Positions 15,488-64,000 of a DNA stretch of 64,000 nucleotides are shown piece after piece. Within the stretch, counting starts at the first letter, position 1, and the number at the start of each line of letters is the position of its first letter. This DNA is from Sycon ciliatum (taxonomy: Eukaryota; Porifera; Calcarea; Leucosolenida; Sycettidae), in NCBI RefSeq assembly GCF_964019385.1, contig NC_088644.1, positions 44,972,483 through 45,036,482 on the forward strand. The letters run 5' to 3'. Under the pieces are notes generated by a model. It was given only the letters and a program-made list of their open reading frames with translations, was not told the origin of the DNA and searched no databases. Both the position numbers and the translations under genes were made by a program.

Positions 15488-16251
15488 ATTTTAATATGGC
15501 AATAAGTAGGACGAGCTGAAGCGACATGTGGACTACTTTATTAACAATGTAAGCGATGGAGACGATGCAAGAAACAACCTAAAGGGTAAGGAAAAATACA
15601 TGTAAGAAGAAAAAGGGGCAATGGAAAAAAAAGGATGATTCGAACAAGTTTTCGTACAACACTCTTCAGGAATCACCGTTGTACTAAAGAACAAAATGAG
15701 AACAAAGGAAATAATATAGCAATCAAGGTAGGGTGACACGATACAATGACAGCACTAGAATATCGAGGTGCGATTTCTCACAAAAGTGTGCAGAAAACAA
15801 GGGTATACAAGTAAGAACTAAGCGTGACAAGTGTGTATCAGCAACAAAAACAAAAAAGTGAGAACGAATGATAATAATAACAATAATAAACAAGAAGGTG
15901 ACAAAACACATTTAGGCACAAGTGGCAACAACGTTGCCACACTACACAACAAAACATTATTTGAACAATTTTAGGGTAATAACACTATCTTTCTGGACAC
16001 ACAAATTCGGCTTATGAATGCGCTGACAAACAGCTTCCAAAACTTGTAACTGCAAAAGATAACCATGACGAGCACGGCACAAAACAGAAAAACAGGAATC
16101 AGAATAAGTACGACAACAGTCAGTACTAGAAACCAAATGATTGTATACTGAAGACTTGTTATTACGAGACGGACGCACACAATCTCGACTCACGCGCACA
16201 CCCTCACACTCACTCTCACCCTCACTCAGCTCACCTTCTCCCTCACTGTCC
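15488..16251 (-). repeat. Left arm of the 764-bp inverted repeat
   Basis: Mirror image of 16,949-17,712 about position 16,600, with no length difference. Three different frames in the arms translate identically, so divergence is near zero. Confidence 0.95.
15633..15677 (-). ncRNA. Hammerhead-ribozyme-like motif, left arm
   Basis: Exact mirror of the motif at 17,523-17,567; see that entry for the fold. Confidence 0.5.
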
Positions 16252-16403
16252 TGAACGCACGTATCAAACAACACACTCCACTTCACATCCTTCCACCCAG
16301 TGCGCAATCTGAGAGGCCCAAACGCGGGAGGCCTAGGAAAAACCCATCACCTAGACGGCAGGATAGTTCCCTGCCGCTGTCTGCCGCTCCCCCTCTGACA
16401 TCT

Positions 16404-17243
16404 GTGTTGGACGGGCTGGAGCTTGGCAGCTCTTTGGAGGTGCGTGCGGAACCGCCACTGGTGCAGCCCTCGGGTGTGCCTAAGTCTGTGCCTCTGGGTG
16501 CTTTGCATGGGGCTGTGCCTCGAGTGGTGACAGCACCTCTGCCTCCCCCTGACCCTCCTCCTTCGAGGTCTGTGTTGGTGGGGAGCACCCGCGGCGGTCG
16601 ATTTGTCCCACCGGAACCAGAGCTGGATCCAACAGAAAGACCAACAACCATGGCTGCAACAACAACACCAGCTGCACATCCAACAACAACACCAGGTTCA
16701 CATCCAACAACAACAACAACTAATCCACAAAACAAAGCAGCAAATGACAGACCACGGAGATCTACAGCAGATTACAACCGGACCTATGAATTCACGGTAA
16801 AAATACAAAGGAAACAATCGGAAAGGACGACGACTGACGTGAAGGCAACGGCATTCAGGGTTGGCGTGGGTGGTGAAGGTGAGACGCAGGACGATGCAAG
16901 TGAGGAGGAGAGTCAAACCGCGGTGGATGATGGAGCAGGTTCTGATTCGGACAGTGAGGGAGAAGGTGAGCTGAGTGAGGGTGAGAGTGAGTGTGAGGGT
17001 GTGCGCGTGAGTCGAGATTGTGTGCGTCCGTCTCGTAATAACAAGTCTTCAGTATACAATCATTTGGTTTCTAGTACTGACTGTTGTCGTACTTATTCTG
17101 ATTCCTGTTTTTCTGTTTTGTGCCGTGCTCGTCATGGTTATCTTTTGCAGTTACAAGTTTTGGAAGCTGTTTGTCAGCGCATTCATAAGCCGAATTTGTG
17201 TGTCCAGAAAGATAGTGTTATTACCCTAAAATTGTTCAAATAA
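16404..17243 (+). CDS. Low-complexity open frame spanning loop and right arm, doubtful gene
   Basis: The frame has 279 codons. Residues 1-110 are Pro/Thr-rich and include repeated HPTTTPGSHPTTTTT; residues about 165-205 are acidic Ser/Glu/Gly (DSDSEGEGELSEGESECEG). The last about 95 residues lie in the arm and are therefore also encoded on the minus strand at 15,957-16,250. No catalytic motif is visible. It may be the remnant of a C-terminal region of a parent retroelement protein, or chance. I would not assign a function. Confidence 0.3.
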   Translation: MLDGLELGSSLEVRAEPPLVQPSGVPKSVPLGALHGAVPRVVTAPLPPPDPPPSRSVLVGSTRGGRFVPPEPELDPTERPTTMAATTTPAAHPTTTPGSHPTTTTTNPQNKAANDRPRRSTADYNRTYEFTVKIQRKQSERTTTDVKATAFRVGVGGEGETQDDASEEESQTAVDDGAGSDSDSEGEGELSEGESECEGVRVSRDCVRPSRNNKSSVYNHLVSSTDCCRTYSDSCFSVLCRARHGYLLQLQVLEAVCQRIHKPNLCVQKDSVITLKLFK

Positions 17244-17712
17244 TGTTTTGTTGTGTAGTGTGGCAACGTTGTTGCCACTTGTGCCTAAATGTGTTTTGTC
17301 ACCTTCTTGTTTATTATTGTTATTATTATCATTCGTTCTCACTTTTTTGTTTTTGTTGCTGATACACACTTGTCACGCTTAGTTCTTACTTGTATACCCT
17401 TGTTTTCTGCACACTTTTGTGAGAAATCGCACCTCGATATTCTAGTGCTGTCATTGTATCGTGTCACCCTACCTTGATTGCTATATTATTTCCTTTGTTC
17501 TCATTTTGTTCTTTAGTACAACGGTGATTCCTGAAGAGTGTTGTACGAAAACTTGTTCGAATCATCCTTTTTTTTCCATTGCCCCTTTTTCTTCTTACAT
17601 GTATTTTTCCTTACCCTTTAGGTTGTTTCTTGCATCGTCTCCATCGCTTACATTGTTAATAAAGTAGTCCACATGTCGCTTCAGCTCGTCCTACTTATTG
17701 CCATATTAAAAT
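16949..17712 (+). repeat. Right arm of the 764-bp inverted repeat
   Basis: Reverse complement of 15,488-16,251. The outer end reads CCATATTAAAAT followed by (AAT)n. Confidence 0.95.
17523..17567 (+). ncRNA. Hammerhead-ribozyme-like motif, right arm
   Basis: Stem I pairs GGTGATTC (17,523-17,530) with GAATCATCC (17,559-17,567). The core is CTGAAGA (17,531-17,537), then a 9-nt stem-loop II (GTGTTGTAC), GAA, and a 3-bp stem III AAC/GTT with 2-nt loop, and C at the cleavage position (17,558). All core bases of a type I hammerhead are present; stem II is very short. Confidence 0.55.
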
Positions 17713-17734
17713 AATAATAATAATAATAATAATT

Positions 17735-17744
17735 AAAAAAAAAA
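17735..17744 (+). promoter_or_regulatory. A-tract upstream of the protease gene
   Basis: TTAAAAAAAAAACTATC lies 24 bp before the protease ATG. It is probably the original leader A-tract, now separated from its upstream neighbour by the retroelement. Confidence 0.35.
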
Positions 17745-17768
17745 CTATCAAATCGTAAGGAGCGTACC

Positions 17769-18365
17769 ATGGAGAAGGTGTTTTTGAACTATGCTCTAAC
17801 AAATCATGATATCAATCATGTTCTGCAAGATGTCCGCGCCTTTCGGGGCGTCGGTGCATATGACCACCTACCACATTTGGATACCGGTCAGTTCTGCATA
17901 GTGAACACGGACAACGTGCACTCATCGACCACCAGTCCCCCTGAAGGCGGACATCATTGGATAACGATCTACCGGGACGGGCGGTGCATTATCATCTTCG
18001 ATAGCTTTGGCAGAAGCTTACATGATATCGGGGTCGATTATGATGAGGCGGACTTTCACCGCTCCATTGCGAGTAGATTTCCCCCATACAAGTACGATTT
18101 GATCACAACAACTCAATCGATACAGCATTCCCAAAGTTCTGTTTGTGGGTGGTATTGTATTCTAGCAGGTCTTCATCTTCTCACCTTTGGCGTAACGCAG
18201 ACCCTTCTCTTTTTTAAAGAAATGTTCGGATCGAATTTACGTCATAACGACGAGATTCTTTTTCACATCATCAAGTGCATGCTCAGAACAGGCGTGTTCG
18301 GTCGAGATGTGAGACGGAACGTCAAAAGTCTCACCGATCTAATGAATCATAGAATCAGAAAATAA
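17769..18365 (+). CDS. Adenain-like maturation cysteine protease
   Basis: It encodes 198 residues from ATG 17,769 (context ACCATGG). The catalytic set of adenovirus protease-type (C5/Ulp1 fold) enzymes is visible: His in GGHHWITIY (H63), acid in FDSFG (D78), and Cys in SVCGWYC (C126) preceded by a Gln-rich segment that supplies the oxyanion Gln. Length matches adenain (about 200). Such proteases cleave capsid and core precursors during virion maturation. It is the first gene after the inserted palindromic element and 22 bp before the integrase gene. All catalytic residues are intact. Confidence 0.88.
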   Translation: MEKVFLNYALTNHDINHVLQDVRAFRGVGAYDHLPHLDTGQFCIVNTDNVHSSTTSPPEGGHHWITIYRDGRCIIIFDSFGRSLHDIGVDYDEADFHRSIASRFPPYKYDLITTTQSIQHSQSSVCGWYCILAGLHLLTFGVTQTLLFFKEMFGSNLRHNDEILFHIIKCMLRTGVFGRDVRRNVKSLTDLMNHRIRK

Positions 18366-18387
18366 TTTCACTCAATATTTATCTACA

Positions 18388-19371
18388 ATGGCTGAGAGCG
18401 AGTGGGAGAGGGAACTCGATAGGTTGGTCAGCGGGCGAAAGCCCACCGACTGGCATCAGCTTGCCAAAGAACTGCATCGGCCGAGACGAATCCATTTCAG
18501 ACGACGCTCCGTTCGAAGCACTGGCGTGGATGAAATTTGGAGCGCTGACCTCGTCGACATGCAAGCTTACGCACGACAGAATCAAAACTATAAATTTCTC
18601 CTCACCGTCATCGACCTGTACTCTCGCTATGCTTGGGCCATTCCTTTGAAGCGTAAAACAGGCATCGAAGTCAGAGATGCTTTTCGCCGAATTGTCAACA
18701 CGTCCGATCGCATTCCTAAAAAGTTATGGGTAGATCGAGGAAAGGAATTCTACAACTCGTCCATGAACGTGTGGAGAGGTGAAAATGACATCGACATTTA
18801 CAGCACTAACAACGAGGGGAAGGCCGTCGTTATCGAGCGCTTCAACCGTACCCTGAAGAGCAGGATGTGGAAACACTTTACGGAAACCGGAACGTACAAA
18901 TACGTCGACGTGTTACCCAGGCTACTGCACAGCTACAACACTACCAAGCACAGAGTCATCTCGCAAACCCCGAGCGAAGCTGCTCATGGAAAAAACATTC
19001 GCATCGCAACACGCCAGACAGATCAACCCCCCAAGTATCACACAGGAGCGAAGGTTCGCATCTCGAAACAGAAAGGCCACTTTGAAAAAGGTTACACGCC
19101 AAATTGGAGTGAGGAAGTGTTTCAGATCAGGAAGGTTCTATTCACAGATCCGGTTACGTATCAGTTGGAAGATCTAAAAGGTGAAGAACTTACAGGCGGT
19201 TTCTATGAAAATGAATTGCAGCAAGCAAAAGAAACCGGACTGAGACTGAACAAAGTGATTAAAACGAAGGGTAATACATCTCTAGTATCTTTCAAAGGCT
19301 ATCCAGCCAAGTTTGATGAATGGTTAAGAAAATCTCAAGTTAATCGGTTGCGTAAGAATAAAATATTGTGA
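18388..19371 (+). CDS. Polinton integrase (retroviral rve type with chromodomain-like C-terminus)
   Basis: It encodes 327 residues from ATG 18,388. The DDE triad is D54 in WSADLVDMQ, D116 in LWVDRGKEF and E150 in VVIERFNRTL, with 33 residues between the last two. The motif NRTLKSRMW follows the Glu as usual. The C-terminal 55 residues (LNKVIKTKG ... FKGYPAKFDEWL) have the aromatic pattern of a chromodomain, known in Polinton integrases, where it may guide integration to chromatin. A classical N-terminal HHCC zinc finger is not evident. It lies after the protease and is convergent with PolB. The frame is intact and the triad complete, so it is potentially active. Confidence 0.9.
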   Translation: MAESEWERELDRLVSGRKPTDWHQLAKELHRPRRIHFRRRSVRSTGVDEIWSADLVDMQAYARQNQNYKFLLTVIDLYSRYAWAIPLKRKTGIEVRDAFRRIVNTSDRIPKKLWVDRGKEFYNSSMNVWRGENDIDIYSTNNEGKAVVIERFNRTLKSRMWKHFTETGTYKYVDVLPRLLHSYNTTKHRVISQTPSEAAHGKNIRIATRQTDQPPKYHTGAKVRISKQKGHFEKGYTPNWSEEVFQIRKVLFTDPVTYQLEDLKGEELTGGFYENELQQAKETGLRLNKVIKTKGNTSLVSFKGYPAKFDEWLRKSQVNRLRKNKIL

Positions 19372-19390
19372 GAATAAAATATTATGAGAA
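19360..19390. terminator. Tandem polyadenylation signals between integrase and PolB
   Basis: AGAATAAAATATT occurs twice in a row across and just after the integrase stop. The 71-bp gap to the PolB stop leaves little room for other elements, so the two convergent transcripts must end here. Confidence 0.5.
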
Positions 19391-19442
19391 CACTATGTAT
19401 TTCATGAAGTGAGCGAATGGCCTGCCGCTACGCTAAGATGTG

Positions 19443-22400
19443 TTATGCCGGTATCTTATAATGTCCATATGCAAGTGTGCTCACACCGTCGTCGAGGATG
19501 TACCTCTTGCTATCGAACGGTGATAGCGCCACTTTGCGGATGGTCTCACCATAGATGTGGTGATTCCGGCTGCGCAGCACATTCATCTCTCTCTCGATGC
19601 TCTGCTGATCGCGTAGAAGGCAGTCCTTGTACGTCGAGAACTGCAGAGTATCGTTCACGACGGACTTCTTCACACCCTTCGCACGCTTTGCTGACTCTTC
19701 GCCGGTGTACGCGTACATCATTGAGCGAAGCCCCACGAACTCGCTCATGATGCGTCCACCCAGCTCATCCTTGAACTTGCCGACGACTTTCTTGTTTGCG
19801 AGGGAGTGCAGAGGATGGTCAGTCGGATAGTTGGACGTATCGTACTGATCCATCATGTCACTCATGTCCGCATACAGGTCGGCCGTGGCGTACTGCAGGA
19901 TGAACGAGTCGGTGTCCGTGTAACACAGCCGTACGTTCTGACCATAGCGTGGCTTCAGAGTGTCGTAGAAGAAGCTGTACATCAGCACCTTCGACAACTC
20001 TAGGATGGAGAAACCCACGTATATAGGTTTGTTCAAGTGAACTTTACACTTGAAGAACTCCACCGCCACCAGGTCGTTGTCGTACACGATACTGCGCTTG
20101 TACGTTGGCTTGACGATGGCGCGCCGCAGCCTGTCCACCTCTTCTTCCGAGCGGACAAGCTTCAGGTTCAAGCGGCGCCGGACGTTCTCCATCGTCTTGC
20201 CAAACACTGCATTGTTCATGAGTTTGTAGAAATCTTTCTCAAACTCCGATGCAGCATTCGTACGCAGATCGGTGTTCAGCTGGATGTACAAGCGCATCCA
20301 CGGACGCTGCGTGAACTGGAGGACGCGATGCACTTCACTCACTTCCACGCCAAGCGCCACGTACGCCTGCAGATTTACGTAGTGGCACACGTAGCGGGTT
20401 TTTGGCAGCAGAGTGAGCATCAGCTTCTTCTCCTTCTGCTTGCCCAAGCCGAGCTGTTGCGCCAGCTGCTGCTGATGCGGCGACAGCATGTCGTCCGTCA
20501 CGCACATGTTCTCGGGGCAAGGAGGATACTCGTTTAGCGCATCGTGCACACCATCGGGAATCGTGAGATCACACTCCACGATGTATCCCACGGGCGAATC
20601 GTGGGGGTGCGTCATGACGATGTCGGCCACGAGATCATCGCTGATGTCCTCCACGAACTTGAAGTCGCCGATGGGCAGAGGCTGCTGCATGGCCCAGCCG
20701 TACAGATTGTTTGCGTCGACGTACTGCAGATACGTCATAGGCTTCGAGGGATCGTACCCGTCTGGGATAAGATCGTTGTTAGCCTCGGCGTACCTCTGCA
20801 CACTCATGCTGATTCCACCGCGGATGCCGTGCTCGATGAAGGTGTGCATCGTCACGTCAGACAGCAGGTCCAGACTGACGTCGGACACCTTGAGCAGCGC
20901 ACTCCACGCAAACCCGGGCAGCGTATAGTAGTTGGCCGGATCTAGCGAGTACGTGGCGATGGCGGTGGTGCGGAAGTTCTCAAATACATCCGCCAGCAAG
21001 TACACGTCCGTCTTCAGGTAAAGATCATGATAATCACGCAGAGTGACACAATCAAACCTGTTCCAGACGGTTTGCGCGTGACGGTACTCGTCATCGGTGA
21101 TGTGTGCCTCGGACAGCGACGAGTAGAACTTCTCCCGTGGGGGGAGACTCTCCTCGTCGAAGCGGCTGAACGAGTCCATGTACTCGTACGGGTATACACC
21201 TTTCCGAAGCAGAAGATCCGTCTTCTCGGGATCTCCCCCATGCAGATCACGCATGCGGACGAACGCTTCTCCAGGTGTTGCCTTCGCAAGCTTATCCAGC
21301 GAAGTGCTGAGAAAAGCGTACGAGTCGATGAACACGAACTGCCGCCACATCATAGCGATGTACTTTTCCGTGTTGGACGGAACGATGTTGATGGAGCCGC
21401 GCTGCTCCGTGTGCTCCTTGTCTCCAGCATCTTGGTACGTCACTTCGTCAATCTTCGTTTTACCGAGATGACTGACGATGTGATGCGCGTCGTACCCCTT
21501 GAGATTGTGGAACACCACCGGGATGTTCACCTTGCCGGGTACGATGCGCAGCTGAAGATTACAGGAGTTGTGCGCTGCTCCGCGAAACGCACCCGTCATG
21601 TGATCGTGGTCACGCACACGATCTCCTCCGAGACGACGTTTACATATCCAGCAATCCCTGGCGCTGAGAAAACCAGCCTCCTCATCAGGCGTCAGGTTCA
21701 TAGGGCGACGATTCTCCAAGTCTTCACGAATGGAGACTTCCTGCAGTTCCAGGGAGGTCAGGAACTGCTCTACTGAATCTTCGCCCGTATGCTGGAACGT
21801 ATCCGTCACGGTGCCATCACTGCGCACGACGATGTATGCGGCAGAACAGGGTATGTGCTCCGAGTGCTGCTTCGTCTTCCCCCCAATGCTTTTAGGCTCA
21901 GCATGAGGTGCGATGATGCTCTCGAAATCAGCATAAATCACATACGGTGCACGAAGCTGCTTCTCGTACTGCGTGAAACGCAGCTTTTCACCCTTCTGCG
22001 GCATCACCGCCCGCGCGATGAGATGGTCTTTACAATGCAGCTGGTGACTCTCCAAAGCCGCCTGAGTGCTCAACACGTTCAGACATCGGTAGCACACCTT
22101 CCGCGAACAACTACTTTTGTTGGCTACCAGTCGACTCATGTTCTTGATGAACACCCAGTGCTGCACGTTACGTTCGTCCTCAGTTTGACCAGAAAACAGG
22201 AGCAGATTGATGGCTTCCTGAGGATCACCTTTTCTGGTCAGACGTAGCGGAACGACAGTCTTCCCATCATCCGATATGCCGAAAACGTTGACGGCGAGAT
22301 CGACATTGTTCTGCTCCAACGTCGTGATGGCACACATACTAGCTGGAAACTCTACACCGGCAAAGTTCAGCTCGTCGACGTATGGAACGTACTTCGATAC

Positions 22401-22979
22401 TCGAGTGTTGTTTGGACCAACATCTTCGTGATGTTTTGCAGCCAGCAGAGCCCACTGCAAACACCGATCGTCGTTGTTGATGACGTTGAGGCAGGCTGTC
22501 TTAGCCTTGATGCGCTGGGGGAGATGGATGAACGTTCCACCTCCCATCGGCTCAAATTTCGACAATTCCAGATATACGGCTTCGACGTGATCCACGATCC
22601 ACCCCGATCCATTCCGGACAAACTCATCGATTTGAGCATCGATCTCTGCTGCAGCACTATCCAATTTGTAACGAACATCATCATCATTCAGGATGATGGT
22701 GGTTCGCGTGCGCACGAAGAAGCTGATGAACACCTTGTCACCGGTGACACCATCCTGCTTCAACAAGCGCAGTTGAAGGACAATAGCTACTTTGTATCTC
22801 CCAAACTCGAGGACGTCATCGCGAAGCAGCTCACTGAGGCTCCTGTCCATCAGCTGTAACAAAACGCTAGCATCCTGGTACTCTCCAGCACCAAGATTGC
22901 AGACGTAGTTCCTGAGCATTCTCGCATTATGCTCGAGCTCGAACTCGAACATTCGCATCACTCGGCTTGGTTGGGACAT
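19443..22979 (-). CDS. Protein-primed family B DNA polymerase (Polinton pPolB)
   Basis: It encodes 1178 residues from ATG 22,979. The exonuclease motifs are ExoI YADFES (about 349-354), ExoII VVFHNLKGYDAHH (about 488-500) and ExoIII near YLKTDVYLLAD (about 654-664). Polymerase motif A is DANNLYGWAM (from about 755), motif B is KLMNNAVFGKTMEN and motif C is YTDTDS. The N-terminal 340 residues hold the usual Polinton extension, with HWVFIKNMSRL and a cysteine-rich finger CYRCL...H..HC (about 296-316). Between ExoI and ExoII a zinc/endonuclease-VII-like cluster CWIC ... DHDHMTGAFRGAAHNSCN (about 443-474) is present. The enzyme replicates the linear element from a terminal protein; a separate terminal-protein gene was not identified. 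The frame is intact and all catalytic aspartates are present. Confidence 0.92.
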   Translation of the reverse strand: MSQPSRVMRMFEFELEHNARMLRNYVCNLGAGEYQDASVLLQLMDRSLSELLRDDVLEFGRYKVAIVLQLRLLKQDGVTGDKVFISFFVRTRTTIILNDDDVRYKLDSAAAEIDAQIDEFVRNGSGWIVDHVEAVYLELSKFEPMGGGTFIHLPQRIKAKTACLNVINNDDRCLQWALLAAKHHEDVGPNNTRVSKYVPYVDELNFAGVEFPASMCAITTLEQNNVDLAVNVFGISDDGKTVVPLRLTRKGDPQEAINLLLFSGQTEDERNVQHWVFIKNMSRLVANKSSCSRKVCYRCLNVLSTQAALESHQLHCKDHLIARAVMPQKGEKLRFTQYEKQLRAPYVIYADFESIIAPHAEPKSIGGKTKQHSEHIPCSAAYIVVRSDGTVTDTFQHTGEDSVEQFLTSLELQEVSIREDLENRRPMNLTPDEEAGFLSARDCWICKRRLGGDRVRDHDHMTGAFRGAAHNSCNLQLRIVPGKVNIPVVFHNLKGYDAHHIVSHLGKTKIDEVTYQDAGDKEHTEQRGSINIVPSNTEKYIAMMWRQFVFIDSYAFLSTSLDKLAKATPGEAFVRMRDLHGGDPEKTDLLLRKGVYPYEYMDSFSRFDEESLPPREKFYSSLSEAHITDDEYRHAQTVWNRFDCVTLRDYHDLYLKTDVYLLADVFENFRTTAIATYSLDPANYYTLPGFAWSALLKVSDVSLDLLSDVTMHTFIEHGIRGGISMSVQRYAEANNDLIPDGYDPSKPMTYLQYVDANNLYGWAMQQPLPIGDFKFVEDISDDLVADIVMTHPHDSPVGYIVECDLTIPDGVHDALNEYPPCPENMCVTDDMLSPHQQQLAQQLGLGKQKEKKLMLTLLPKTRYVCHYVNLQAYVALGVEVSEVHRVLQFTQRPWMRLYIQLNTDLRTNAASEFEKDFYKLMNNAVFGKTMENVRRRLNLKLVRSEEEVDRLRRAIVKPTYKRSIVYDNDLVAVEFFKCKVHLNKPIYVGFSILELSKVLMYSFFYDTLKPRYGQNVRLCYTDTDSFILQYATADLYADMSDMMDQYDTSNYPTDHPLHSLANKKVVGKFKDELGGRIMSEFVGLRSMMYAYTGEESAKRAKGVKKSVVNDTLQFSTYKDCLLRDQQSIEREMNVLRSRNHHIYGETIRKVALSPFDSKRYILDDGVSTLAYGHYKIPA

Positions 22980-24235
22980 CTTGTAGCTAAATGTACTTTC
23001 AACTAAACAAACTTACTTTCACCTTTCTTCATCGAAGGAAAATAAATTATGAGCAAGTAAAAGGAAAAGCATCTAGAGTACTTCGCCCGCGTTCTGTTTG
23101 AACCCGTTCAAACTTGTCGTTGGTTCTAGTTGATTCCAGAAACTTCCGCCTGATCGGAGTACGCTGTGCGTACTCTGAGCATCGCGAGGAGTAGGAAACC
23201 ATCGACATTTTGCTACTCTCTCTGATTGCTGCAGACCGGGGAGTAGTAAATGTATAGTATTTTACTACTCCCTGATGCAGACAGCGCGTGCGCGCGTACT
23301 CCTCGTAACCTTTTGACCCGCGTACGCGAGGGTTCGGGCGCGCTTTTGATGTGTATCCTGTACGCAGGTCTCGTTTTGACTGGCTTTGTGGTTTGATGCG
23401 TACAAACTTGAAAATTTCAAACTCGTCGGGGCAAGTGGTGTGTACGTATATCGAATCAATCTTCATTTCCTCAAATCATTTCGTAGTGACGGTGTTCCTT
23501 TTTTCATGTAGTCCTGGAATTATTTTAGCCTAGTCGTTTATTCGGACAAGAGACGGACATCCCTCTTCATCTCCTTGCAGCATTGCTTCGTGCAAGGTAT
23601 GTGATCGTCGGCCATTGCATGTCTATCGGATCGTAGTCTGATTCCATAATTATATAGATGCAGATATTTATTTTTTCGTAATTTTCAGCGTTTGATTTAT
23701 TTTTTCGTAACTTTTCATCGTTTACAGCTGCAACACTATCGTCATACATCTGCGCGTGTGAATGCACATGTGCATCTTACCTGGTGATGAGCATGACCCT
23801 CCCCCCGATTGAATTGTTGTATAATTCATGCAAGGTAAGTAAAATAGTTTACTAAGTCTTGCTGTTAGGTAAATCGGGGGGAGGATTTTTTTCCACCGAC
23901 TCTCCAGTACCTGTAGACACGTAGGTGATTGGGTTATTACGGACGTCATCAAAGAGTTGATGGGGGGTTGCGATGGTGATTGGGTTAGCATAACGATAGG
24001 ATCTGTACACATAACAACAAGATTTGCTAATAGGGTATATAGGACCTGTACGCACACACACACATAATATAAGAATAACGATAGGATCTGTGCACGTAAC
24101 AACTAGATCTAGGGCAAATAGGACTTGTACACATATAAGATGATTATTAGGGTTTGCTGAGTGTTGTTGTTGCCGTTGTGATCTGTAGTACCTGCACACA
24201 TAAAAAGAGTAGAGTTGGCATGGTAATAGGATTGT
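22980..24235. other. PolB upstream region, no convincing gene
   Basis: One minus-strand frame of 139 codons (23,047-23,466) is Arg/Ser/Thr-rich without motifs and I do not accept it. The stretch holds a strong hairpin at 23,239-23,272 and a GTACTC/GAGTAC-rich promoter-like zone at 23,155-23,310. Beyond about 23,900 it passes into TTAGGG-like words. Confidence 0.5.
23239..23272. repeat. Perfect hairpin upstream of PolB
   Basis: GGGAGTAGTAAA (23,239-23,250) mirrors TTTACTACTCCC (23,261-23,272) around a 10-nt loop; CTGCA/TGCAG extends it outside after a small bulge. Position about 260 bp upstream of the PolB start suggests a regulatory palindrome. Confidence 0.7.
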
Positions 24236-24990
24236 CATGGTGATAGGGTTACTAGGGTTATCGTCTATCGAACTATTAGGGTTATCATCACCAGAAAAAT
24301 TAGGGTTATCGTCATGGTGATAGGGTTATCAGGAATATTAGGGTTATGACTATCGAGATTATTAGGGTTATCGCCATGGTGATAGGTTTAGGTGTTATCA
24401 GAAATATTAGGGTTATCACCATGGTGATAGGGTTATCATCATCCGGAATATTAGGGTTATCGTCATGGTGATAGCCCTAGGGTTGGGGTTATCAGGAATA
24501 TTAGGGTTATCGTCATGGTGATAGCCCTAGGGTTAGGGTTATCAGGAATATTAGGGTTATCGTCATGGTGATAGCCCTAGCGTTAGGGTTATCGCCATGG
24601 TGATAGGGTTAGGGTTACCAGGATTATTAGGGTTAATACATCCCGATTTTTAGGGTTAAAACGTACAGATTTAGGGTTAAATCGCAAAATTTAGGGTTAA
24701 AACACCCCGGTTTTTAGGGTTAAATCGCATTACGTCATCGATGACGTCATGTGTAAAACGCTTCGATTTTAGGTTAAATCGCAAAAATTTACCGTAAATC
24801 GCAAAAATTTAGGGTTAAAACGCCCCGGTTTTTAGGGTTAAATCGCATTACGTCATCGATGACGTCATGTGTAAAACGCTCCGATTTTAGGTTAAATCGC
24901 AAAAATTTACCGTAAATCGCAAAAATTTAGGGTTAAATCGCCCCGGTTTATAGGGTTAAATCGCTATGACGTCATCGATGACGTCAGTGA
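24236..24990 (+). repeat. Degenerate TTAGGG-like arrays at the right Polinton end
   Basis: Two kinds of tandem array are present. From 24,236 to about 24,640 units built on ATTAGGGTTATCGTCATGGT recur, with a 55-60-bp higher-order period near 24,485-24,600. From about 24,700 to 24,990, 126-bp units contain CCCCGGTTTTTAGGGTTAAA and a perfect palindrome GACGTCATCGATGACGTC. The left Polinton arm has only scattered inverted AACCCTAAT copies. Confidence 0.85.
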
Positions 24991-25904: not shown

Positions 25905-25948
25905 GATTGCGGCGTACGTTTCGTCCCCGCTGGACTCATCAGGCAATC
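25905..25948 (-). ncRNA. Hammerhead ribozyme motif, canonical core with one damaged pair
   Basis: On the minus strand, stem I GATTGC/GCAATC is perfect, the core is CTGATGA, stem II is GTCC/GGAC (4 bp), then GAA and stem III ACG..CGC. The pair next to the cleavage site is A-C instead of A-U, which should impair cleavage. Confidence 0.65.
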
Positions 25949-37876: not shown

Positions 37877-38490
37877 CATGCATCGACTAGGCGCCAGGCG
37901 GAAACTGATGGTGGTGGTGGTGGTGAGAAGGAGAGCTCTGCCCTAGAACTTAGCAGCCTAGAGAGCGTGTGTGGGCAGCCGTGTGTTTACCGCAATATTG
38001 CCAGGTGTGTCTTTACCACCGTATTTATCAACCATAAGTACAGCTGCAGTGGTGTCTTCAACTTCATTCTCCAGATAATAATACTCAAAGATATTCCAGG
38101 TTTGTTCATCACGTATTATTACTATTATTATTATACGCACGTCTGCGTTTACGTCAACAGTAAGTCCACGTATTCGCATGTGCCAGAAGACAGGCAGAGT
38201 GGGCAGAGAGGAAACAAAAAATAAAAGTAAAAAGACAGCAGGCGATAGGCACATAACTCATGTTCGATGATAGGCGCTCAATGCACGGGATCTATTCGAA
38301 AGATCAAAAAATAAAATAAGAATAACAGAAAACGACGATAGGTTTGTAACTCATGGTCGATGGTAAGTGCTAAATGCACGGGGTCTGTACAATGCCTTCG
38401 TCCCATCTGTTAGTTACTGCGTACATCCTAGCACAGCTCGCGCCACGCTGGCCTGTGCACGTATTAAGCAGTACTATATATAAACACAGT
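37877..38490. other. Non-coding stretch with a degenerate direct repeat
   Basis: No gene. ACTCATG.TCGATG.TA.G.G and TGCACGGG words recur at about 38,233-38,293 and 38,331-38,388. A TATA-like ACTATATATAAAC lies at 38,472-38,485, just before the minisatellite. Confidence 0.5.
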
Positions 38491-38930
38491 TATGCAACTG
38501 TTCCCTGCGTTATGCAACTGTTCCCTGCGTTATGCAACTGTTCCCTGCGTTATGCAACTGTTCCCTGTGTTATGCAACTGTTCCCTGCGTTATGCAACTG
38601 TTCCCTGCGTTATGCAACTGTTCCCTGCGTTATGCAACTGTTCCCTGCATTATGCAACTGTTCCCTGCGTTATGCAACTGTTCCCTGCGTTATGCAACTG
38701 TTCCCTGCGTTATGCAACTGTTCCCTGCGTTATGCAACTGTTCCCTGCGTTATGCAACTGTTCCCTGCGTTATGCAACTGTTCCCTGCGTTATGCAACTG
38801 TTCCCTGCGTTATGCAACTGTTCCCTGCGTTATGCAACTGTTCCCTGCGTTATGCAACTGTTCCCTGCGTTATGCAACTGTTCCCTGCGTTATGCAACTG
38901 TTCCCTGCGTTATGCAACTGTTCCCTGCGT
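38491..38930 (+). repeat. 20-bp minisatellite, 22 units
   Basis: The unit is TATGCAACTGTTCCCTGCGT. There are exactly 22 units, with single-base variants at two units (TGTGT near 38,570 and TGCAT near 38,648). Three long overlapping frames run through it because no stop occurs in any forward frame; I do not regard them as genes. Confidence 0.97.
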
Positions 38931-46142: not shown

Positions 46143-46379
46143 CTTTTGTGCACCCGCACATGTTGTCCAGGCGTCAGGGGCCCAGCCTCCCTTTACACGC
46201 AGCGTCTACAACTGTTCCCTGCATGGCACATAGAAGATGACACAGCAACGACATAGCTCGATTGCGGCGTACGTTTCGTCCCCGCTGGACTCATCAGGCA
46301 ATCTTCTTCTTGGATGTCTTCATACGGAGCTTGACTCGGGACTTGATATACCGGCCTGCTATACCGGATCCCGCAACCA
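46143..46379 (+). repeat. Flanking repeat, copy 2 (second part)
   Basis: It matches 25,790-26,025 up to the LTR junction and includes the minus-strand hammerhead at 46,260-46,303. Confidence 0.8.
46260..46303 (-). ncRNA. Hammerhead ribozyme motif, second copy
   Basis: Identical in core to the copy at 25,905: perfect stem I GATTGC/GCAATC, CTGATGA, 4-bp stem II GTCC/GGAC, GAA, and the same A-C mismatch next to the cleavage site. Confidence 0.65.
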
Positions 46380-48854: not shown

Positions 48855-49010
48855 GCCTTATAAAACAAACAAAAATGTTGAGCTAGCTAGCTGAGCCGCC
48901 CGGCCGGCCGCACGGGCACGAAACCAAAGGCGGCAAAAACAGTGTACGCTTTTTTTCAACAGCAAAAATGGAACGCCGCGTACGCATGCTGTTCAAAAGT
49001 TCGCTCTCAA
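48855..49010 (-). repeat. Inverted fragment of the gypsy leader
   Basis: The reverse complement of this stretch matches about 46,985-47,125 (GCGTAC.CGCCGTTCCATTTT through CAGCTAGCTAGCTCAACATT). It is a third partial copy of the leader in opposite orientation. Confidence 0.75.
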
Positions 49011-50160
49011 GCACTCGTGCAGTGTTTTCCTGCTGAGTGTTTACCAGCATCTGAGAGATAGGAGTTCTGACTTTCGCTTGCCGCTGGACAAAGAAACGAG
49101 CTCAGCCCTGAGTTGGTTGGTCTCAGAACTAAAAGAAATCAGCGATCGCTGCGATAGAAATATCAGAGACACCCATCATTGCTTCTTGGCCGGCGACTAC
49201 ATGTAAAGCCGAACGACAGTACAGGCACAGCAGTGGCCAAGCAACAAATCAGCTACGACTTCTTCTTCTCTACGAAGCGAAAACTACAAACTCGGCGACC
49301 AGTCGCAGTTTATTTAAAAAGTCTCGCTCGCGCGCTCCTCAGTCAAAATGATGTTGTAGCTGTGTTCACTGCATGCTGCTGCCACTGGATACACAAAAAG
49401 TGCGGGTGACACGACTTTTGTTTGTCACCACTTGGCCAAGTAACTACGCGTTGTCAAGAAGCTGTGACGTCAGACTTCGACGGCCTATTGTCATGGTGAT
49501 TTTTATTTTTCACTCTGTTATCACTGCGGTAAATCCTAGTTTATACTATTCAAGGCAATGAATCTCATTCTGTGAACTATGTGTTCCCAGACTTATTCAC
49601 TGAATACAGTCATGTTCCATTCTTTAACCATGGTGCAGAATACATGTGCCTTTGCTGTTTGCGTTATGCAGAGCTCACTGACTTGTCAGTTTGAGCACTG
49701 TGGCAGGGTACGCTCGGGCCTGATTGGAAATTTTGATTTCCATTGCTATCAGGTTCGGCCTCATTTCCTCTGTGCTGCGCTGACGAGTCCACAAAGGACG
49801 AAACAGTTCTGTCCGCAGATTGAGTACGTATTTGTACTATATTTCTGCAATTGCAAATTGCACCAAATTGTTGTAATATCCTAAGTAAAGTAAGATAATA
49901 CAATTATCAATGGTGGGTATGTGTCATAGTTGTGGCCTGCATAGATTAGACTCAAAAATCTGAGGAAGATACACTTCAACAGGAAATAGAACAGCTTTTT
50001 CTTATTGAAAATGGTAAAATTTCATGTATCCAACTCACACGACGACAAGCATATCTGTGATCCCCCCCCCCCCCATTTGTTTAGACAATCAACATAAGCA
50101 CTACCCAAGGGACAAATTCACAAGTTTATTATAAACTTTCCATGTTTTTAATTTTTGGAG
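49011..50160. other. Stretch without recognised genes
   Basis: Only short frames. Bases about 49,660-49,830 (CTGACTTGTCAGTTTGAGCA ... CCACAAAGGACGAAACAGTT) are repeated at 62,645-62,810. A C-tract lies at about 50,064-50,074. Confidence 0.6.
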
Positions 50161-50168
50161 TTTGGTGG

Positions 50169-51219
50169 TAGGCGTTGACAGAATATGCTAATATTTTCGT
50201 GAAATTATGCTTTTCGCATTGCTGAAAAATTGCAGAATTAGGCCATCCAGAATTAATTCGTTGTTTCGGGTCACCCGACCGACCGTCTTTTTTCACCCGA
50301 CCGCAAAAAAAAATTTTTTATAGTGCATGCAAATGTACAGACTAGACTATGTACACACGCAACCCTAATAATAGCAGTCCAGATATCGACCTCAGAAGCA
50401 GCCATGGCTAGCCAAATGACAGAATGCAGCGCTTGGTGACGACGTTGTATTCTATCTCCGATCCGCAATCAGTCCTGAAACAGCATCAGCTCCGCCACCT
50501 TGTCGCTATTTACAGAAGTTTTCAAGGTGAGAGCTGCTCGCCGGTCAGACTCGTTTGCCAGCGAGGCCAAGATCTGGTCCTGGAGGGGACCTGGATCTGA
50601 TGGGTCAATGACTGCGCTGGATTGTCTACACTACAGTCAGATTTGATCGACTGGCTAGATGGACAAAAGCTATTCGATGTACATGTACATGTACGTAAAC
50701 CAAAATAAAAATAGAATAAAAAATAAACCCGACCGACCGACCCTGGCACGGATGAGTGAAGTGACCCGAAACAACGAATTAATTCTAGGTGGCCTTATGC
50801 TATTTTTATGCTAAAAGTTATCATATTATGCGGCATTATGCTCACATATGCTGCTAATGTACATGTATATGATGGTTCTGTGAAAATAGCAGGTGATTTT
50901 TTTTGTAAAGGGCATTGTACTGTAGTAGCAAAAGTTCAACGGGGTCAACGCACCGTCCGACCTAGCTACGACCGTCACCCTGGTCACTGATTGTAGTAGA
51001 CTGGACATGTTATCAAGGGAGTCGTAAACCTACGCCTTCCTAGTGCGTCTACTTGTACTTGTACTTGTAGAACATGTACAACTGTATGGAATTTGATGCG
51101 AACAGGCGGATTAGTCCAATTTTATGCGATTCGTATGCAATTTGCCTCGAATTATGCGATTATTCGATTTTGGTAGGAATTATGCGAAAAATTATGCTAG
51201 CATAATCTGTCAAGGCCTA
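50169..51219. mobile_element. hAT-like non-autonomous DNA transposon
   Basis: Left end TAGGCGTTGACAGAATATGC and the reverse complement of the right end TAGGCCTTGACAGATTATGC form terminal inverted repeats. They are flanked by the direct repeat TTTGGTGG (50,161-50,168 and 51,220-51,227), 8 bp or 9 with the next T, as expected for hAT. The interior is rich in TTATGC words and contains a nested MITE. No transposase is encoded. Confidence 0.72.
50241..50794. mobile_element. PIF/Harbinger-like MITE nested in the hAT-like element
   Basis: The terminal repeats start GGCCA.C and continue AGAATTAATTCGTTGTTTCG on both sides (about 33 bp). The target duplication is TTA (50,238-50,240 and 50,795-50,797), the Harbinger preference. 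It is 554 bp with no open frame of note. Confidence 0.72.
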
Positions 51220-53074: not shown

Positions 53075-53158
53075 TACATAATAATATTAATGCGATTAAT
53101 AGTATAAGTGAAGCGGACATTACAAAATGATGAATGAGAATACATGTATCTAAAATGG

Positions 53159-53200
53159 TTGTTCCTAATCGATTTTCTTGAGACTATCATCAGGGAAAAA
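53159..53200 (-). ncRNA. Hammerhead-ribozyme-like motif, left arm
   Basis: Mirror copy of 53,549-53,590. Confidence 0.5.
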
Positions 53201-53548
53201 TTCGTCTCACAATAGAGGCTATACGGAGAAACAAACTACTTATAGGTTATCGGATAGTGGGAAGTATACAAGGTGAGGGGTGAAAAACAAAACTAACTAA
53301 AGTGGGAGAGAAGACGAAAGAAATTAGAAGAAAAGATGTGAGAGTGTTCGGACGGTGTGAGCTACTACAAAAGGTGAGTGAAATGAAGGCGTGAAAGCAG
53401 GTGAATGTGATAGAGTGAGGAACTGTGAGGTGTAGGTGTGTGCCCACTTTAGTTAGTTTTGTTTTTCACACCTCACCTTGTATACTTCCCACTATCCGAT
53501 AACCTATAAGTAGTTTGTTTCTCCGTATAGCCTCTATTGTGAGACGAA

Positions 53549-53590
53549 TTTTTCCCTGATGATAGTCTCAAGAAAATCGATTAGGAACAA
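53549..53590 (+). ncRNA. Hammerhead-ribozyme-like motif, right arm
   Basis: Stem I TTTTTCC with GGAACAA (6 of 7 pairs), core CTGATGA (53,556-53,562), 9-nt stem II segment, GAA, stem III AAT/ATT with loop CG, and A at the cleavage position (53,583). The stem III pair composition differs from the 17,523 copy but pairing is kept. Confidence 0.5.
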
Positions 53591-54195
53591 CCATTTTAGA
53601 TACATGATTGTATTCTCATTAATCATTTTGTAATGTCCGCTTCACTTATACTATTAATCGCATTAATAAAGTTATTGTCTCCTCGTCGCCTTTACATAAT
53701 AATAATACGAATTTTAGCTCTTGGAAATATAACAGGACTGACTGAGTTACGATCAATTGAAATGCTGCACACACAGGAGACTATTTATGGTATCATAAGG
53801 TGTAAGTTATTAAATCTAAAACTAATACCAGCAACACTGATATTAAATATAGCACTATTGGAGGCGTGATTACATAAGCAGCAAGCAGTGTGCAATGTTT
53901 GGGACTACTCGTAGATCTGCGGTATTCAGGCATTTGGTGTCCAACCCACTATGTTTGCAATTGTATAATGATTCCTGCTTCATGGTGGGGTTCTATGCTA
54001 GTAGTTGTCGTCCACTCTCCGTATTAGAAGCCATGTTTATACGTACTCGTGATCCAGATTGCAAACAGAAAGAATTCGTTACAGCATTCCCCTAACAAAA
54101 TAATAAAATAACCGACGAGGAGACAACAGTCGTAAAATAGCAATGAAAAATATCAATTGTGCACTCATGACCATGTATAAACAATTAAAATGAAA

Positions 54196-54240
54196 CAATT
54201 CCAGAACGTTTTCGTGTGACCATCAACAGTGGAACATCGT
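54196..54240 (-). ncRNA. Degenerate hammerhead-like motif (left arm of 54,111 element)
   Basis: Minus strand: stem I GTTCCA/TGGAAT, core CTGTTGA (one base off), GAA and AACGTT where stem III should be. The counterpart lies at about 54,478-54,516 on the plus strand. Confidence 0.4.
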
Positions 54241-54537
54241 TACATAGTAAGAATCACTAAAACAACCAGTTATATAGCTAGAGTAATATGAAAAGAAGCG
54301 TGAGAATGCAGCACAGCTAGCGGTTATGCATAACGCGTGTAGTGTGAACCTTTGCAGTGTATCTGAGAATGGTAGCAGTAGATGAATGTGGCAGCTAGCT
54401 GTGCTGCATTCTCACGCTTCTTTTCATATTACTCTAGCTATATAACTGGTTGTTTTAGTGATTCTTACTATGTGACGATGTTCCACTAATGATGGTCGCA
54501 CGAAAACGTTCTGGAATTGTTTCATTTTAATTGTTTA

Positions 54538-59189: not shown

Positions 59190-59235
59190 GCTCAATACAC
59201 AGTGTTTCGGGGAATTCACCCCTCATCAGTTGAGC
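59190..59235 (-). ncRNA. Canonical type I hammerhead ribozyme
   Basis: Minus strand 59,235 to 59,190: stem I GCTCAA/TTGAGC (6 bp, perfect), core CTGATGA, stem II GGGG/CCCC (4 bp, loop TGAATT), GAA, stem III ACA/TGT with loop CTG, and A at the cleavage position. All conserved core bases are present and all three stems pair perfectly. Confidence 0.82.
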
Positions 59236-59414: not shown

Positions 59415-59591
59415 AGTACAACGGTGATTCCTGAAGAGTGTTGGATGAAAACATGTTCAAATCCGCTTTTTTCCATCGCTTTTTCTCCTTACCTTTTAGA
59501 TCGTTTTTCGCACCGTCTCCAGAACTTAACATTGTTTAATAAAGTAGTCCAAATATGACTTAAGCTCGTCCTCCTTATTGCAATATTAAAA
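59415..59591 (-). repeat. Fragment of the palindromic-element arm (outer half)
   Basis: It matches 17,514-17,710, ending at the CAATATTAAAA edge where the THAP transposon inserted. It contains a hammerhead-like motif at 59,423-59,466. Confidence 0.8.
59423..59466 (+). ncRNA. Hammerhead-like motif, partly degenerate
   Basis: Core CTGAAGA, GAA, stem III AAC/GTT with loop AT. Stem I is weakened because the base after the cleavage C is A rather than G. Confidence 0.42.
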
Positions 59592-59868: not shown

Positions 59869-60030
59869 ATATGGCAGCAAGAAATAGTACACCAGAAATT
59901 GCTTCTCGTTTTGCGAACCCATCTGTGGGCGAAACGATTGCTAGATGGACTTTTGCTCAGCTGAGGACTTACGTGAGGGGGAGATGCCGGTAGATGGAAA
60001 GCGAGATGATTTGTTGCAGAGGTAACACCG
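59869..60030 (+). pseudogene. SAP-like motif remnant
   Basis: From ATG at about 59,871 a short frame contains TFAQLRTYVRG; a one-base shift leads to a PVDGKRDDLLQR-like end. This pattern fits a SAP DNA-binding helix-loop-helix. The break makes it nonfunctional here. Confidence 0.4.
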
Positions 60031-60099
60031 AAAGATTTTATTTTATTCCCAACGCCCCAGAGCTTAGGACGAGGGACAATGATGGCAGTCGGCGCCGAG

Positions 60100-61741: not shown

Positions 61742-62092
61742 TCACCCAGATTGCATTGAATACTGTCGAATGCTTCCTCCAGCGTAGGGACAGTATGCCT
61801 GGGATATCACTAGGTATAAGTCGTATGTCTTCAGGCAGCTCCCGTGCAGTAGCTCACGACACGAGGTAGAGCGACGGACGCCGGTTAGCATCAGCCGCTG
61901 TTGTCTTGGCGGACCAGATTGAAAACTCCAGATACAAAAATGTTTTACCAGTCTTGCTCTGGCGATTTTCTCCCCTTGTACATAATCTTCTGGCAAGAAA
62001 TGGTCAGAGCACACCACTGTAGTGTCACTTTCTTTTGCTCTCCTTCCCTTTCCTCCCGTCGAATAGCAGCAGTCCATTTCCTTCACAGTTCA
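61742..62092 (-). pseudogene. THAP-domain remnant
   Basis: The minus-strand frame contains TTVVCSDHFLPEDYV, the C...HF...DY block of THAP zinc fingers. Upstream, in a shifted frame near 62,085, WTAAIRRE resembles the conserved THAP Trp segment. THAP domains bind transposon ends. Frame changes suggest decay or introns. Confidence 0.5.
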
Positions 62093-62501
62093 GGATGATG
62101 GAAATTTATGGAAAAGACGAATACCATTTGCTGGGGCCGGGGAGTAACGCCGGTCACCAGTACATCCTGGAACACAGCAATGGTCGTGGTTGGTCGGTAT
62201 CCGAAAACAAGACAGCGAAAAATCACACCAGCCGCTATAAAGCAAGCAAAACTGTTTCTTCTATCCATATTTACAGCTTTAGTTTTTCAGTAATCTCAAC
62301 GCCGAAGGAAGTGCTAAAACTAGTAACGGTGGAACTGCATGCATTCCATTCATGCACGTGCAGCACCTGATTGCGTAAGCACGCAACAAGCCTAAAATCC
62401 GTGTACTGTACACACCCCGTGCACTTGACAAGCTAAGCCTGGGCGCATCAATCGCATGCCCTCTCAACTTTTCGAGCGCTTATTTGGCATATCATCTATT
62501 G

Positions 62502-62516
62502 TTGTCTCCACGTCGA
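62502..62516 (-). repeat. One-sided end of a palindromic retroelement
   Basis: On the minus strand it reads TCGACGTGGAGACAA, the shared end of this family. The element body continues at 59,591 on the other side of the THAP transposon. Confidence 0.7.
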
Positions 62517-62924
62517 ATATTTAAAGGAGACTGTTTTAATTTTTCATCGAAAGTTCACGAGAAGAAAACAACCCATTCGTGTATTACTCTCCTGCTTGTA
62601 GCAGTTTAGCACTCTTGTGTGGGGTAGTGCCTTTGCTGTTTTCGTTCCTGACTTGTCAGTTTGAGCACTCTGACAAGTTACGTTCCGGCTTGGTTTAAAT
62701 CTGGCTTGGAAACTAATTTTTCATTGTTACCAGGTTCGGGGTCATTTCCTCTGTGCTGCACTAATGAGTCCACAAAGGACGAAACAGTTCTGTCCGCAGA
62801 TTGAGTAACAATCCATTCATAAAGCCGTTTTATCAATTTTTGTTCGAAAGTATCGAATATATCTGTAAAAAATCAAGTAAATCCTTAGGAATTCTCTCCC
62901 CCCACTGCTCCTACCTCCCACTTT
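62517..62924. other. Non-coding, includes a dispersed repeat copy
   Basis: Bases about 62,645-62,810 match 49,660-49,830. No gene. Confidence 0.65.
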
Positions 62925-63620
62925 CTTGCTAACTTCATTTTTATTTAGCCTACCTTCGCCCAATATTTGATTATGCCGATACGTCTTGGGTTGGATTATC
63001 CTCTTCCGCTGCTGCAAAGCTTGAAATACACCACAAGAAAATCCTTAAAATTCTCCTCCGTCAACCGCACATGCTCTCATCAACCGCCCTTTATAAAATC
63101 GCTCACACAACCCCGTTATCACATGGACGCAGTGCACACCTGGCTTTTCTTGTCCATTCTATTAAGCTTGAGTTGTGCCCACCTCATCTCATGTGTTTTA
63201 ATTGGTTCTCTTCTCTAAGAACTAGAAACTCGCTCTTACTCCCTAAGTGTAACTCATCCACTCTTTTGCGCTCCCCTCTCTTTATTGCTTATTCTGTTTG
63301 GCTCATTCTACCCAGAGAAGTTAAGGATCTGACCTCACTCCGCCTGTTTAAGATCCGTGCCGCCCCTTATTTACTACGACATAAATAGCTCATTATCCAC
63401 ATGTCCTTTGCGTCTCTCTGTTTTTCACTGTTTTTATTAGACATTATCTTTCTTTACGGAGTTGTTGTTGCTGTTCATTTTGCTACTGTTTCTTTTTCCC
63501 TCCCCTTACTTTTATTTATCGCCGTGGTTGGCAATCACCCACTCTCTTCGCATTGGCCCGTGTGTTTCCGCCGAGTCTTGAGATGTTGAAATAAATATAA
63601 ATATAAATATACCCAATGCT
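62925..63620 (+). mobile_element. L2/CR1-like LINE C-terminal fragment
   Basis: From about 62,930 an open frame reads LAYLRPIFDYADTSWVG and continues to 63,388 with LEIHHKKILKILL, parallel to MNKLEIQHKSLLKILF in the minus-strand LINE at 41.3-41.6 kb. The tail is (AAATAT)n at 63,590-63,612. Only the 3' end was inserted. Confidence 0.75.
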
Positions 63621-63656
63621 GTAGACAGCAAGCAAGTTAAATATAAATATAAATAA

Positions 63657-64000
63657 TCGACGTGGAGACAACAATTTTATAATAGCAATAAAAAGAACAA
63701 ATTCTGCTGTCATCGCCACACTACAACGAAGTCATGAAAGTTTACCAGAATTAATTTTCTTGTCACATTCATCAGTGGAAAGTCGTGACTGAAGAGTGAC
63801 CATGCTGAACAATGATTAAATATACATTCAATGATGTGTTACGAGAACAAAATACAGTGCCAAAATAGAATGAGGGAAGGTGAGACAATAGAAGTGAAGT
63901 GAGAGCTAAGTGCAAAAGGGGTGAGGAACTAATTGCAACGCTAGGTGCACAGCATGATTGTTTGTCTCACTACACAGTTCTAGCGTTGCAATTAGTTCCT
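63657..64000 (+). mobile_element. Palindromic retroelement, truncated by the window edge
   Basis: It starts TCGACGTGGAGACAACAATT (63,657). At the end 63,926-63,945 (AGGAACTAATTGCAACGCTA) mirrors 63,981-64,000, so the window stops just inside the second arm. One hammerhead motif lies in the left arm. Confidence 0.78.
63738..63785 (-). ncRNA. Hammerhead-ribozyme-like motif
   Basis: Minus strand: stem I TTTCCA with TGGTAA, core CTGATGA, 9-nt stem II segment, GAA, stem III AAT/ATT with loop TA, cleavage C. The 3-bp stem with 2-nt loop is conserved in pairing but not in sequence versus other copies. Confidence 0.52.

Follow-up and report, generated by a model that had tools for sequence, protein, structure and literature searches.

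How might a hammerhead ribozyme work if its stem II hairpin did not form? This question is raised by a 64,000-nucleotide (nt) stretch of the genome of the sponge Sycon ciliatum (contig NC_088644.1, positions 44,972,483 to 45,036,482; hereafter the window, whose own numbering is used below), in which hammerhead-like motifs recur in Penelope-like elements (PLEs). A sequence-only reading had described hammerhead motifs with an unusually short stem II, spread over a whole family of palindromic retroelements. We found that a hammerhead-like motif is indeed common to related, mostly palindromic retroelements, but the short stem II hairpin did not hold; the reading had missed a pseudoknot between positions 3–7 of the 9-nt segment that separates CTGANGA from GAA and a strand further upstream. 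It is likely, in our view, that the motif is a hammerhead-like module in the 3' untranslated region (pseudo-long terminal repeat, pseudo-LTR) of a PLE lineage, with the pseudoknot replacing stem II. The order of the module, from the 5' end, is upstream pseudoknot strand, 5' strand of stem I, CUGANGA, NN, second pseudoknot strand, GAA, stem III, H, and 3' strand of stem I.

The pattern CTGANGA-N9-GAA occurred six times on the two strands of the 64-kb window, compared with a mean of 0.72 (standard deviation 0.84, maximum 3) in 100 dinucleotide-preserving shuffles of the window, none of which reached six. The six exact sites were both arms of an element designated A, both arms of element C, and single sites in elements B and D; adding both arms of the core-damaged element E brings the total to eight sites, which represent six distinct sequences in five elements. 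The right arm of A (17516–17567, plus strand) contained pseudoknot strands GTACAAC/GTTGTAC, stem I, CTGAAGA, GAA and AACTTGTT, with predicted cleavage after C 17558, and the left arm (15633–15684, minus strand; predicted cleavage after C 15642) was identical. In C, the arms were located at 53157–53210 (minus strand) and 53539–53592 (plus strand), the latter with pseudoknot TGAGAC/GTCTCA, CTGATGA, AATCGATT and predicted cleavage after A 53583. The motif of D (63740–63791, minus strand) had pseudoknot GTCAC/GTGAC, CTGATGA, AATTAATT and predicted cleavage after C 63748, and that of B (59416–59466, plus strand) belonged to a single PLE 3' end related to A, in which the pseudoknot and stem I were partly lost. 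The left arm of E (54196–54245, minus strand) had the core CTGTTGA and a pseudoknot with one mismatch, and the right arm (54470–54519, plus strand) had CTAATGA and a pseudoknot with one G-U pair; E is therefore without CTGANGA. The hammerhead core (CUGANGA and GAA), the A15.1-U16.1 pair and H17 were present together in four of the five elements, E having core changes in both arms, while A15.1-U16.1 was found in all six distinct sequences and H was never G. A motif was present at, or no more than 2 nt from, each of the seven coordinates named by the sequence-only reading, from whose list the right arm of E was absent. Its claim of a shared CTGANGA applied to A, B, C and D but not to the copy at 54,196 (CTGTTGA), and the 9-nt segment that it described as constant was constant in length but varied in sequence.

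The 3-bp stem II hairpin was considered as the main structure of this segment and was rejected. Its pairs formed in 61% of 18 cells, a level equalled by 252 of 500 shuffles, and its covariation (0.200) was at the shuffle level (0.183). Every 9-nt segment, taken alone, was predicted to be unfolded (minimum free energy 0.0), and a forced hairpin cost +2.7 to +5.8 kcal/mol, an energetic penalty in every one of the six sequences. With the stem II hairpin rejected on these grounds, we call the motif hammerhead-like rather than a standard type I hammerhead.

A different partner for the segment was found upstream. In all six exact sites, its longest complement within 25 nt upstream started at segment position 3 and ended 8–10 nt before CTGA, with lengths of 7 bp in A, 6 in C, 5 in D and 4 in B; in A the pairing extends over 7 bp right up to GAA, and it ends 1 nt short of GAA in C and E and 2 nt short in D. 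Across the six distinct sequences, segment positions 3–7 paired with the upstream strand in 28 of 30 cells, and three of the five pairs showed double changes, the other two being invariant. Covariation was 0.613 versus 0.191 in shuffles, and seven cells showed a double change versus 2.1 in shuffles; neither value was reached by any of 500 shuffles. All six slid registers gave far lower values than the chosen one. These counts were derived from a MAFFT alignment of the six distinct sequences with re-trimmed ends, and a hand count agreed. In one pseudoknot pair, D and the right arm of E (the two elements are 70% alike here) had C-G in one and G-C in the other. Calculated duplex energies were -4.8 to -6.8 kcal/mol for A, C, D and the right arm of E, -2.7 kcal/mol for B and 0.0 for the left arm of E. 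When single sites were shuffled and strict Watson-Crick pairing was required, P values were 0.0001 for A, 0.015 for B, 0.0007 for C and 0.0068 for D. This pattern points to an H-type pseudoknot, in which approximately five pairs to the upstream strand are predicted to occupy the place of the stem II hairpin.

Stem I, said in the earlier reading to differ in sequence and still pair, did so: by hand alignment, 27 of 30 cells were paired over its first five pairs, with one pair missing from each of B (the first pair), C and D; a double change was present in each of the five pairs, and none of 5000 shuffles reached its number of paired cells or its covariation. The stem also lies flush with the core. 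Stem III was described as AAC/GTT or AAT/ATT with a 2-nt loop, and this description fits A, B, C and D; the halves in E follow each other directly (AACGTT) and leave no room for a hairpin loop. The covariation claimed for this stem was present at one of its three pairs (C-G versus T-A) but not at the other two, which were invariant. The 2-nt loop is strained. In five of the six sequences (four of the five elements), stem III was self-complementary over 6 or 8 nt, and calculated self-duplexes had energies of -2.0 to -6.4 kcal/mol in these five and -1.5 kcal/mol in A. PLE hammerheads reportedly cleave as dimers, to judge from the title of the paper of Luense et al. 2017. The same is said of them in a review (PMC7761336), and dimers are described as cleaving much better than monomers among amphibian hammerheads whose helix III is very short and palindromic (PMC7229834). 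By analogy, the motif may act as a dimer through its largely self-complementary stem III.

The combination of these features was compared with that in unrelated matches to the core. Among the 120 matches listed of CTGATGA-NNGT-N5-GAAAA in viral contigs, one had at least 5 bp and two had at least 4 bp at the place of the pseudoknot, three had at least 5 bp anywhere within 25 nt, and seven had a 3-bp stem III with a 2-nt loop. None of 131 CTGANGA-N9-GAA sites in 127 fetched loci (sites too close to a locus end were skipped) combined pseudoknot, stem III and stem I, as compared with five of the six exact sites of the window, B being the one that did not.

The elements that carry the motif can be named as PLEs, probably of the endonuclease-bearing kind, whose architecture includes a reverse transcriptase (RT) and a GIY-YIG domain. 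Element A (15472–17712) is a head-to-head pair inside a Polinton, with a left copy on the minus strand (15472–16251) and a right copy on the plus strand (16252–17712). Its coding region (16251–17240, plus strand) corresponds to the C-terminal part of a PLE protein, with an AT-hook spacer and the second half of the GIY-YIG domain. A search with the right-copy coding region found four proteins (10 candidates). In tblastn searches, protein P0001 was 95% identical to the coding region from 16404 onward, the reading frame of A matched residues 277–520 of P0002 with an E-value of 1.2e-40, and both proteins matched both arms of A. P0002 contains a stretch with FVDD, then YNFECRNCASRYVGRT..RIKQH, a long AT-hook-like spacer and a C-terminus as in A; we take FVDD to mark the RT and YNFECRNCASRYVGRT..RIKQH the GIY-YIG domain. 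In Pfam, the RT and GIY-YIG regions of P0002 were both below their own cut-offs (14.8 of 29.6 bits and 17.2 of 22.6 bits), and the window's own C-terminal fragments were not named as GIY-YIG. The PLE identity of A was derived through its relative P0002. This protein had 1749 relatives at an E-value of 1e-5 or lower among 7992 candidates scored; among the 120 matches listed, many were labelled PF00078 (RVT_1) and one, from Chrysogorgia stellata, was named reverse transcriptase. A consensus of 12 aligned relatives had the same layout as P0002. The closest named relatives, P0004 and P0008, were both from Sycon ciliatum. The former is an ankyrin-repeat protein whose last 34 residues are 91% identical to the PLE C-terminus, and this ending may be either a PLE fragment serving as a coding end or a gene-model artefact.

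The remaining elements were compared by blastn. A and B were 76% identical over 198 columns, and D and E 70% over 141; the terminal region of A was 79% identical to C over 57 columns and 83% identical to D over 42. The five elements thus look, from these comparisons, like one lineage with about three branches (A/B, C and D/E). Element C (53090–53688) is a head-to-head pair with inverted repeats I3 and I7, a tail at its right end only and the flanking 12-nt repeat TACATAATAATA, and element E (54113–54537) is a head-to-head pair with inverted repeat I4 (97%) and a tail at its left end only. A separate relic of a PLE GIY-YIG C-terminus lies between C and E (53910–54089, plus strand; residues 224–285 of P0003, 47% identity, E-value 5e-7). 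Element D (63658–64000) is cut by the end of the window; it has a tail with one mismatch at the left and a palindromic inner junction (63924–63944/63980–64000). A palindromic retroelement family had been proposed, and the elements are in fact related retroelements of which four of five (A, C, D and E) are palindromic, but B is a single copy.

The four palindromic elements are pairs of 5'-truncated copies joined head to head, forming inverted pseudo-LTRs. The arms of A (15485–16251/16949–17715) were 100% complementary over 767 nt, those of C matched at 99% over 164 nt and those of E at 97% over 145 nt; the stretch that joins the arms was 697 nt in A, 136 nt in C, 35 nt in D and 72 nt in E, and was not a perfect hairpin. 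In a search that allowed up to two mismatches, each of the three complete palindromes, A (left end), C and E, had the terminal tail TTGTCTCCTCGTCG at a single end; in D, the end that lies inside the window carried it with one mismatch. The elements were flanked by AT-rich sequences or TAA repeats. No clear flanking repeat was present at E, and the 19-nt flanking repeat of A is ambiguous as a target duplication because it lies inside TAA repeats. Rotifer PLEs are described as having inverted pseudo-LTRs that are mostly head-to-head, with an optional tail on one (PMC3846280), and the protein of an Anolis PLE reportedly cuts and extends both target strands, with reverse transcription beginning at two adjacent internal sites that its authors tie to the tail (PMC11167929). 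We propose that both nicked target strands would prime reverse transcription of 5'-truncated copies, one on each side, which would be joined head to head; priming by both strands would also account for the presence of the short tail at one palindrome end only. It is quite possible, if less probable in our judgement, that the palindromes instead reflect twin priming, or self-priming in which an antisense copy was the template; Arkhipova and co-authors have read rotifer PLE palindromic junctions as the latter kind of self-priming (PMC3846280). Two features of the window argue otherwise: the arms of all four palindromes are joined through stretches of 697, 136, 35 and 72 nt with no perfect hairpin, and the two ends of A, C and E differ by the tail, as if reverse transcription had begun twice. 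A further copy of the tail word, with one mismatch, was observed at 62502–62515 (plus strand), where it closes a 182-nt inverted repeat (59588–59769/62322–62503); no hammerhead-like motif was seen in this repeat, whose other arm begins right after the PLE end of B.

The motif itself is hammerhead-like and probably works like a hammerhead. The upstream strand would pair with the segment and stem I would close; stem I and the pseudoknot would then keep CUGANGA next to GAA, a task that falls to stems I and II in other hammerheads. A second copy would supply stem III to give a double hammerhead, and the RNA would be cut after H (UUC or UUA), approximately 90–170 nt before the tailed end of the element (170 nt in A, 105 in C, 91 in E and 90 in D, from coordinates). 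Such putative self-cleavage might release the PLE RNA contained in tandem or read-through transcripts, and the PLE protein may assist. In Anolis, the PLE ribozyme reportedly acts only with the protein, and insertion in vitro continues when the ribozyme is lost (PMC11167929). Since that ribozyme is protein-dependent and dispensable for insertion, two benefits are candidates here: the module may set free RNA of unit length, or it may be a structure to which protein binds and whose hammerhead form is owed to descent. A bolder version holds that stem II is built from non-neighbouring strands, its 5' strand lying upstream of stem I, and that this PLE lineage rewired a ribozyme that still cleaves as a dimer; we put this forward only tentatively. 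The catalytic junction would then be an H-type pseudoknot, and the 7-bp pairing of A, which reaches GAA, is what such a stem II would show. If true, this version would break the assumption that the CUGANGA block runs continuous with both of its stems.

Several observations weigh against the proposed module. PLE coding sequence is present in A only, and B, C, D and E were assigned through similarity of 3' ends and the shared tail. Rfam gave no matches at the gathering threshold in the whole window and 13 at an E-value of 10 or lower, none of which was at the motif sites. The pseudoknot of E is weak under strict Watson-Crick pairing (P 0.27 for the left arm with its mismatch and 0.045 for the right arm with its G-U pair), and B retains only four pseudoknot pairs. 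The number of pseudoknot pairs with a double change was not significant (79 of 500 shuffles were as high), nor was the number of pair types (53 of 500), and the same was true of stem I pairs with a double change (721 of 5000). The register of the pseudoknot was picked after the sequences had been viewed, and the initial alignment had the strand of C one column off. The shuffles overstate significance because there are only six distinct sequences and about three lineages. The stem III of A is not self-complementary, and dimer action and dual-strand priming are both steps that we infer. Finally, in the Anolis PLE, no RNA-seq reads are reported to start or end at the predicted site and the protein is needed (PMC11167929).

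A different role is conceivable for the same structure. The same stems could form with the pseudoknot kept as a structure for PLE protein binding or for the start of reverse transcription, cleavage being weak or absent. This finds parallels in the Anolis PLE, in which the RNA required for insertion adjoins the hammerhead, insertion persists when the ribozyme is catalytically mutated, and the ribozyme shows no activity unless protein is present (PMC11167929), and in the R2 element of Taeniopygia, which reportedly binds a pseudoknotted RNA (PMC12222951). We regard it as doubtful for the sponge elements: in A, B, C and D the core, A15.1-U16.1 and an H that is not G have been kept despite changes in stem I and the pseudoknot, and a site for binding alone would have no need of these features.

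We consider it unlikely that the motif is a conventional small PLE hammerhead with a stem II of 2–3 bp, in which the upstream complementarity would be a secondary contact of loop II. In some other hammerheads, stem II is described as only two base pairs long, or a single pair, and U-U as tolerated in the first pair (PMC3088659). However, besides the low pairing, shuffle-level covariation and unfavourable energy of the 3-bp hairpin in the six sequences, the outer two pairs of this hairpin compete with the 7-bp pseudoknot in A, and a 2-bp stem (segment positions 1-9 and 2-8) forms in only six of 12 cells. That the motifs arose by chance in AT-rich repeats and were then multiplied as the repeats were copied is highly improbable: the palindrome arms do copy each other, so that the eight sites represent six sequences and fewer lineages, but differing stem I and pseudoknot sequences pair in the same register, and no control site (0 of 131) holds all three pairings.

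Additional features were observed in the window. A canonical type I hammerhead at 49774–49819 (plus strand) scored 30.1 bits in Rfam (gathering threshold 34; E-value 0.0021) and was the sole hammerhead match listed at an E-value of 10 or lower; a second copy of its repeat at 62718–62807 (plus strand) has the core CTAATGA. This repeat is retrozyme-like, and no tandem array was found around it at 49000–50800. At 59205–59229 (minus strand), approximately 200 nt from motif B and on the opposite strand, a canonical-looking type I hammerhead was recognized by eye, with a 4-bp stem II (GGGG/CCCC) and a 6-bp stem I; it has no second copy in the window and was not among the Rfam matches. Two copies of a long repeat contain CTGATGAGTCC-AGCG-GGGACGAAA with a 6-bp stem I by eye (25919–25942 and 46274–46297, both minus strand), in which A15.1-U16.1 is missing because the site reads GCC. 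The Polinton/Maverick that surrounds element A extends over approximately 4300–23000 and encodes a type B DNA polymerase, an integrase and an adenovirus-type protease (Pfam), as well as likely capsid and ATPase genes recognized by eye; A lies between two of its genes. Repeats of TTAGGG-like units (TAGGGTTATC, TTTAGGGTTAAA) at 24277–24964 represent interstitial telomere-like or minisatellite DNA, and a long 20-nt tandem repeat at 38369–39028 is open in three plus-strand frames.

Neither the P0002 search nor an alignment search found further DNA copies in viral contigs, and an alignment search of genome contigs found no further copies of the motif. The tail pattern was detected at seven loci of viral contigs, but at none of them did the preceding 400 nt contain a motif of this type; one of these tail-pattern loci (L126) had a single CTGAAGA...GAA with different spacing. 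Among titles and abstract openings, which do not cover the text of Luense et al. 2017, no PLE form with a pseudoknot in the place of stem II was found in the literature, and Sycon paired with Penelope gave no match. A 2020 review calls the role of PLE hammerheads unknown (PMC7761336). The pseudoknot form would escape any search in which a stem II hairpin is required; if a pseudoknot can replace stem II, elements scored as ribozyme-less may have a ribozyme, and this form would give a natural test of the connections that the hammerhead core needs.

Hammerheads have been described in PLEs before, and pseudoknots and a very short stem II in other hammerheads; the elements described here can be placed among these systems. 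The endonuclease-bearing Penelope of Adineta vaga (PMC3846280) shares inverted pseudo-LTRs, head-to-head arrangement, a single tail and possibly, in some copies, short target duplications; the word hammerhead is absent from the text of that paper. The satellite hammerheads of newt and axolotl (PMC7229834) share a very short palindromic helix III and are active as dimers; unlike the present motif, they have retained contacts between loops 1 and 2, and they occur in retrozyme repeats rather than in PLEs. The non-circularly permuted SGC/CSG hammerheads (Eckert et al. 2023, PMC10085705) also have a pseudoknotted core, whereas the order here is the classic C-G-S, and the single shift would be that of the 5' strand of stem II to an upstream place. 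Hammerheads with a pseudoknot between stems I and II (Perreault et al. 2011, PMC3088659) share a Watson-Crick pseudoknot that joins these stems and may have a very short stem II; there the pseudoknot is added to stem II, while the six sequences of the window give no support for a stem II. The closest relatives are the small type I hammerheads of PLEs and Terminons (Cervera and de la Pena 2014; Luense, Weinberg and Breaker 2017), which are described in PMC7761336, PMC6155905 and PMC7229834. They share the element type, the position in pseudo-LTRs, the block order CUGANGA-GAA-site, a weak or missing helix III and proposed action as dimers. In contrast to these known PLE hammerheads, which are described as being without helix III or a tertiary contact, the sponge motif has an unsupported stem II and, in its place, a predicted pseudoknot.

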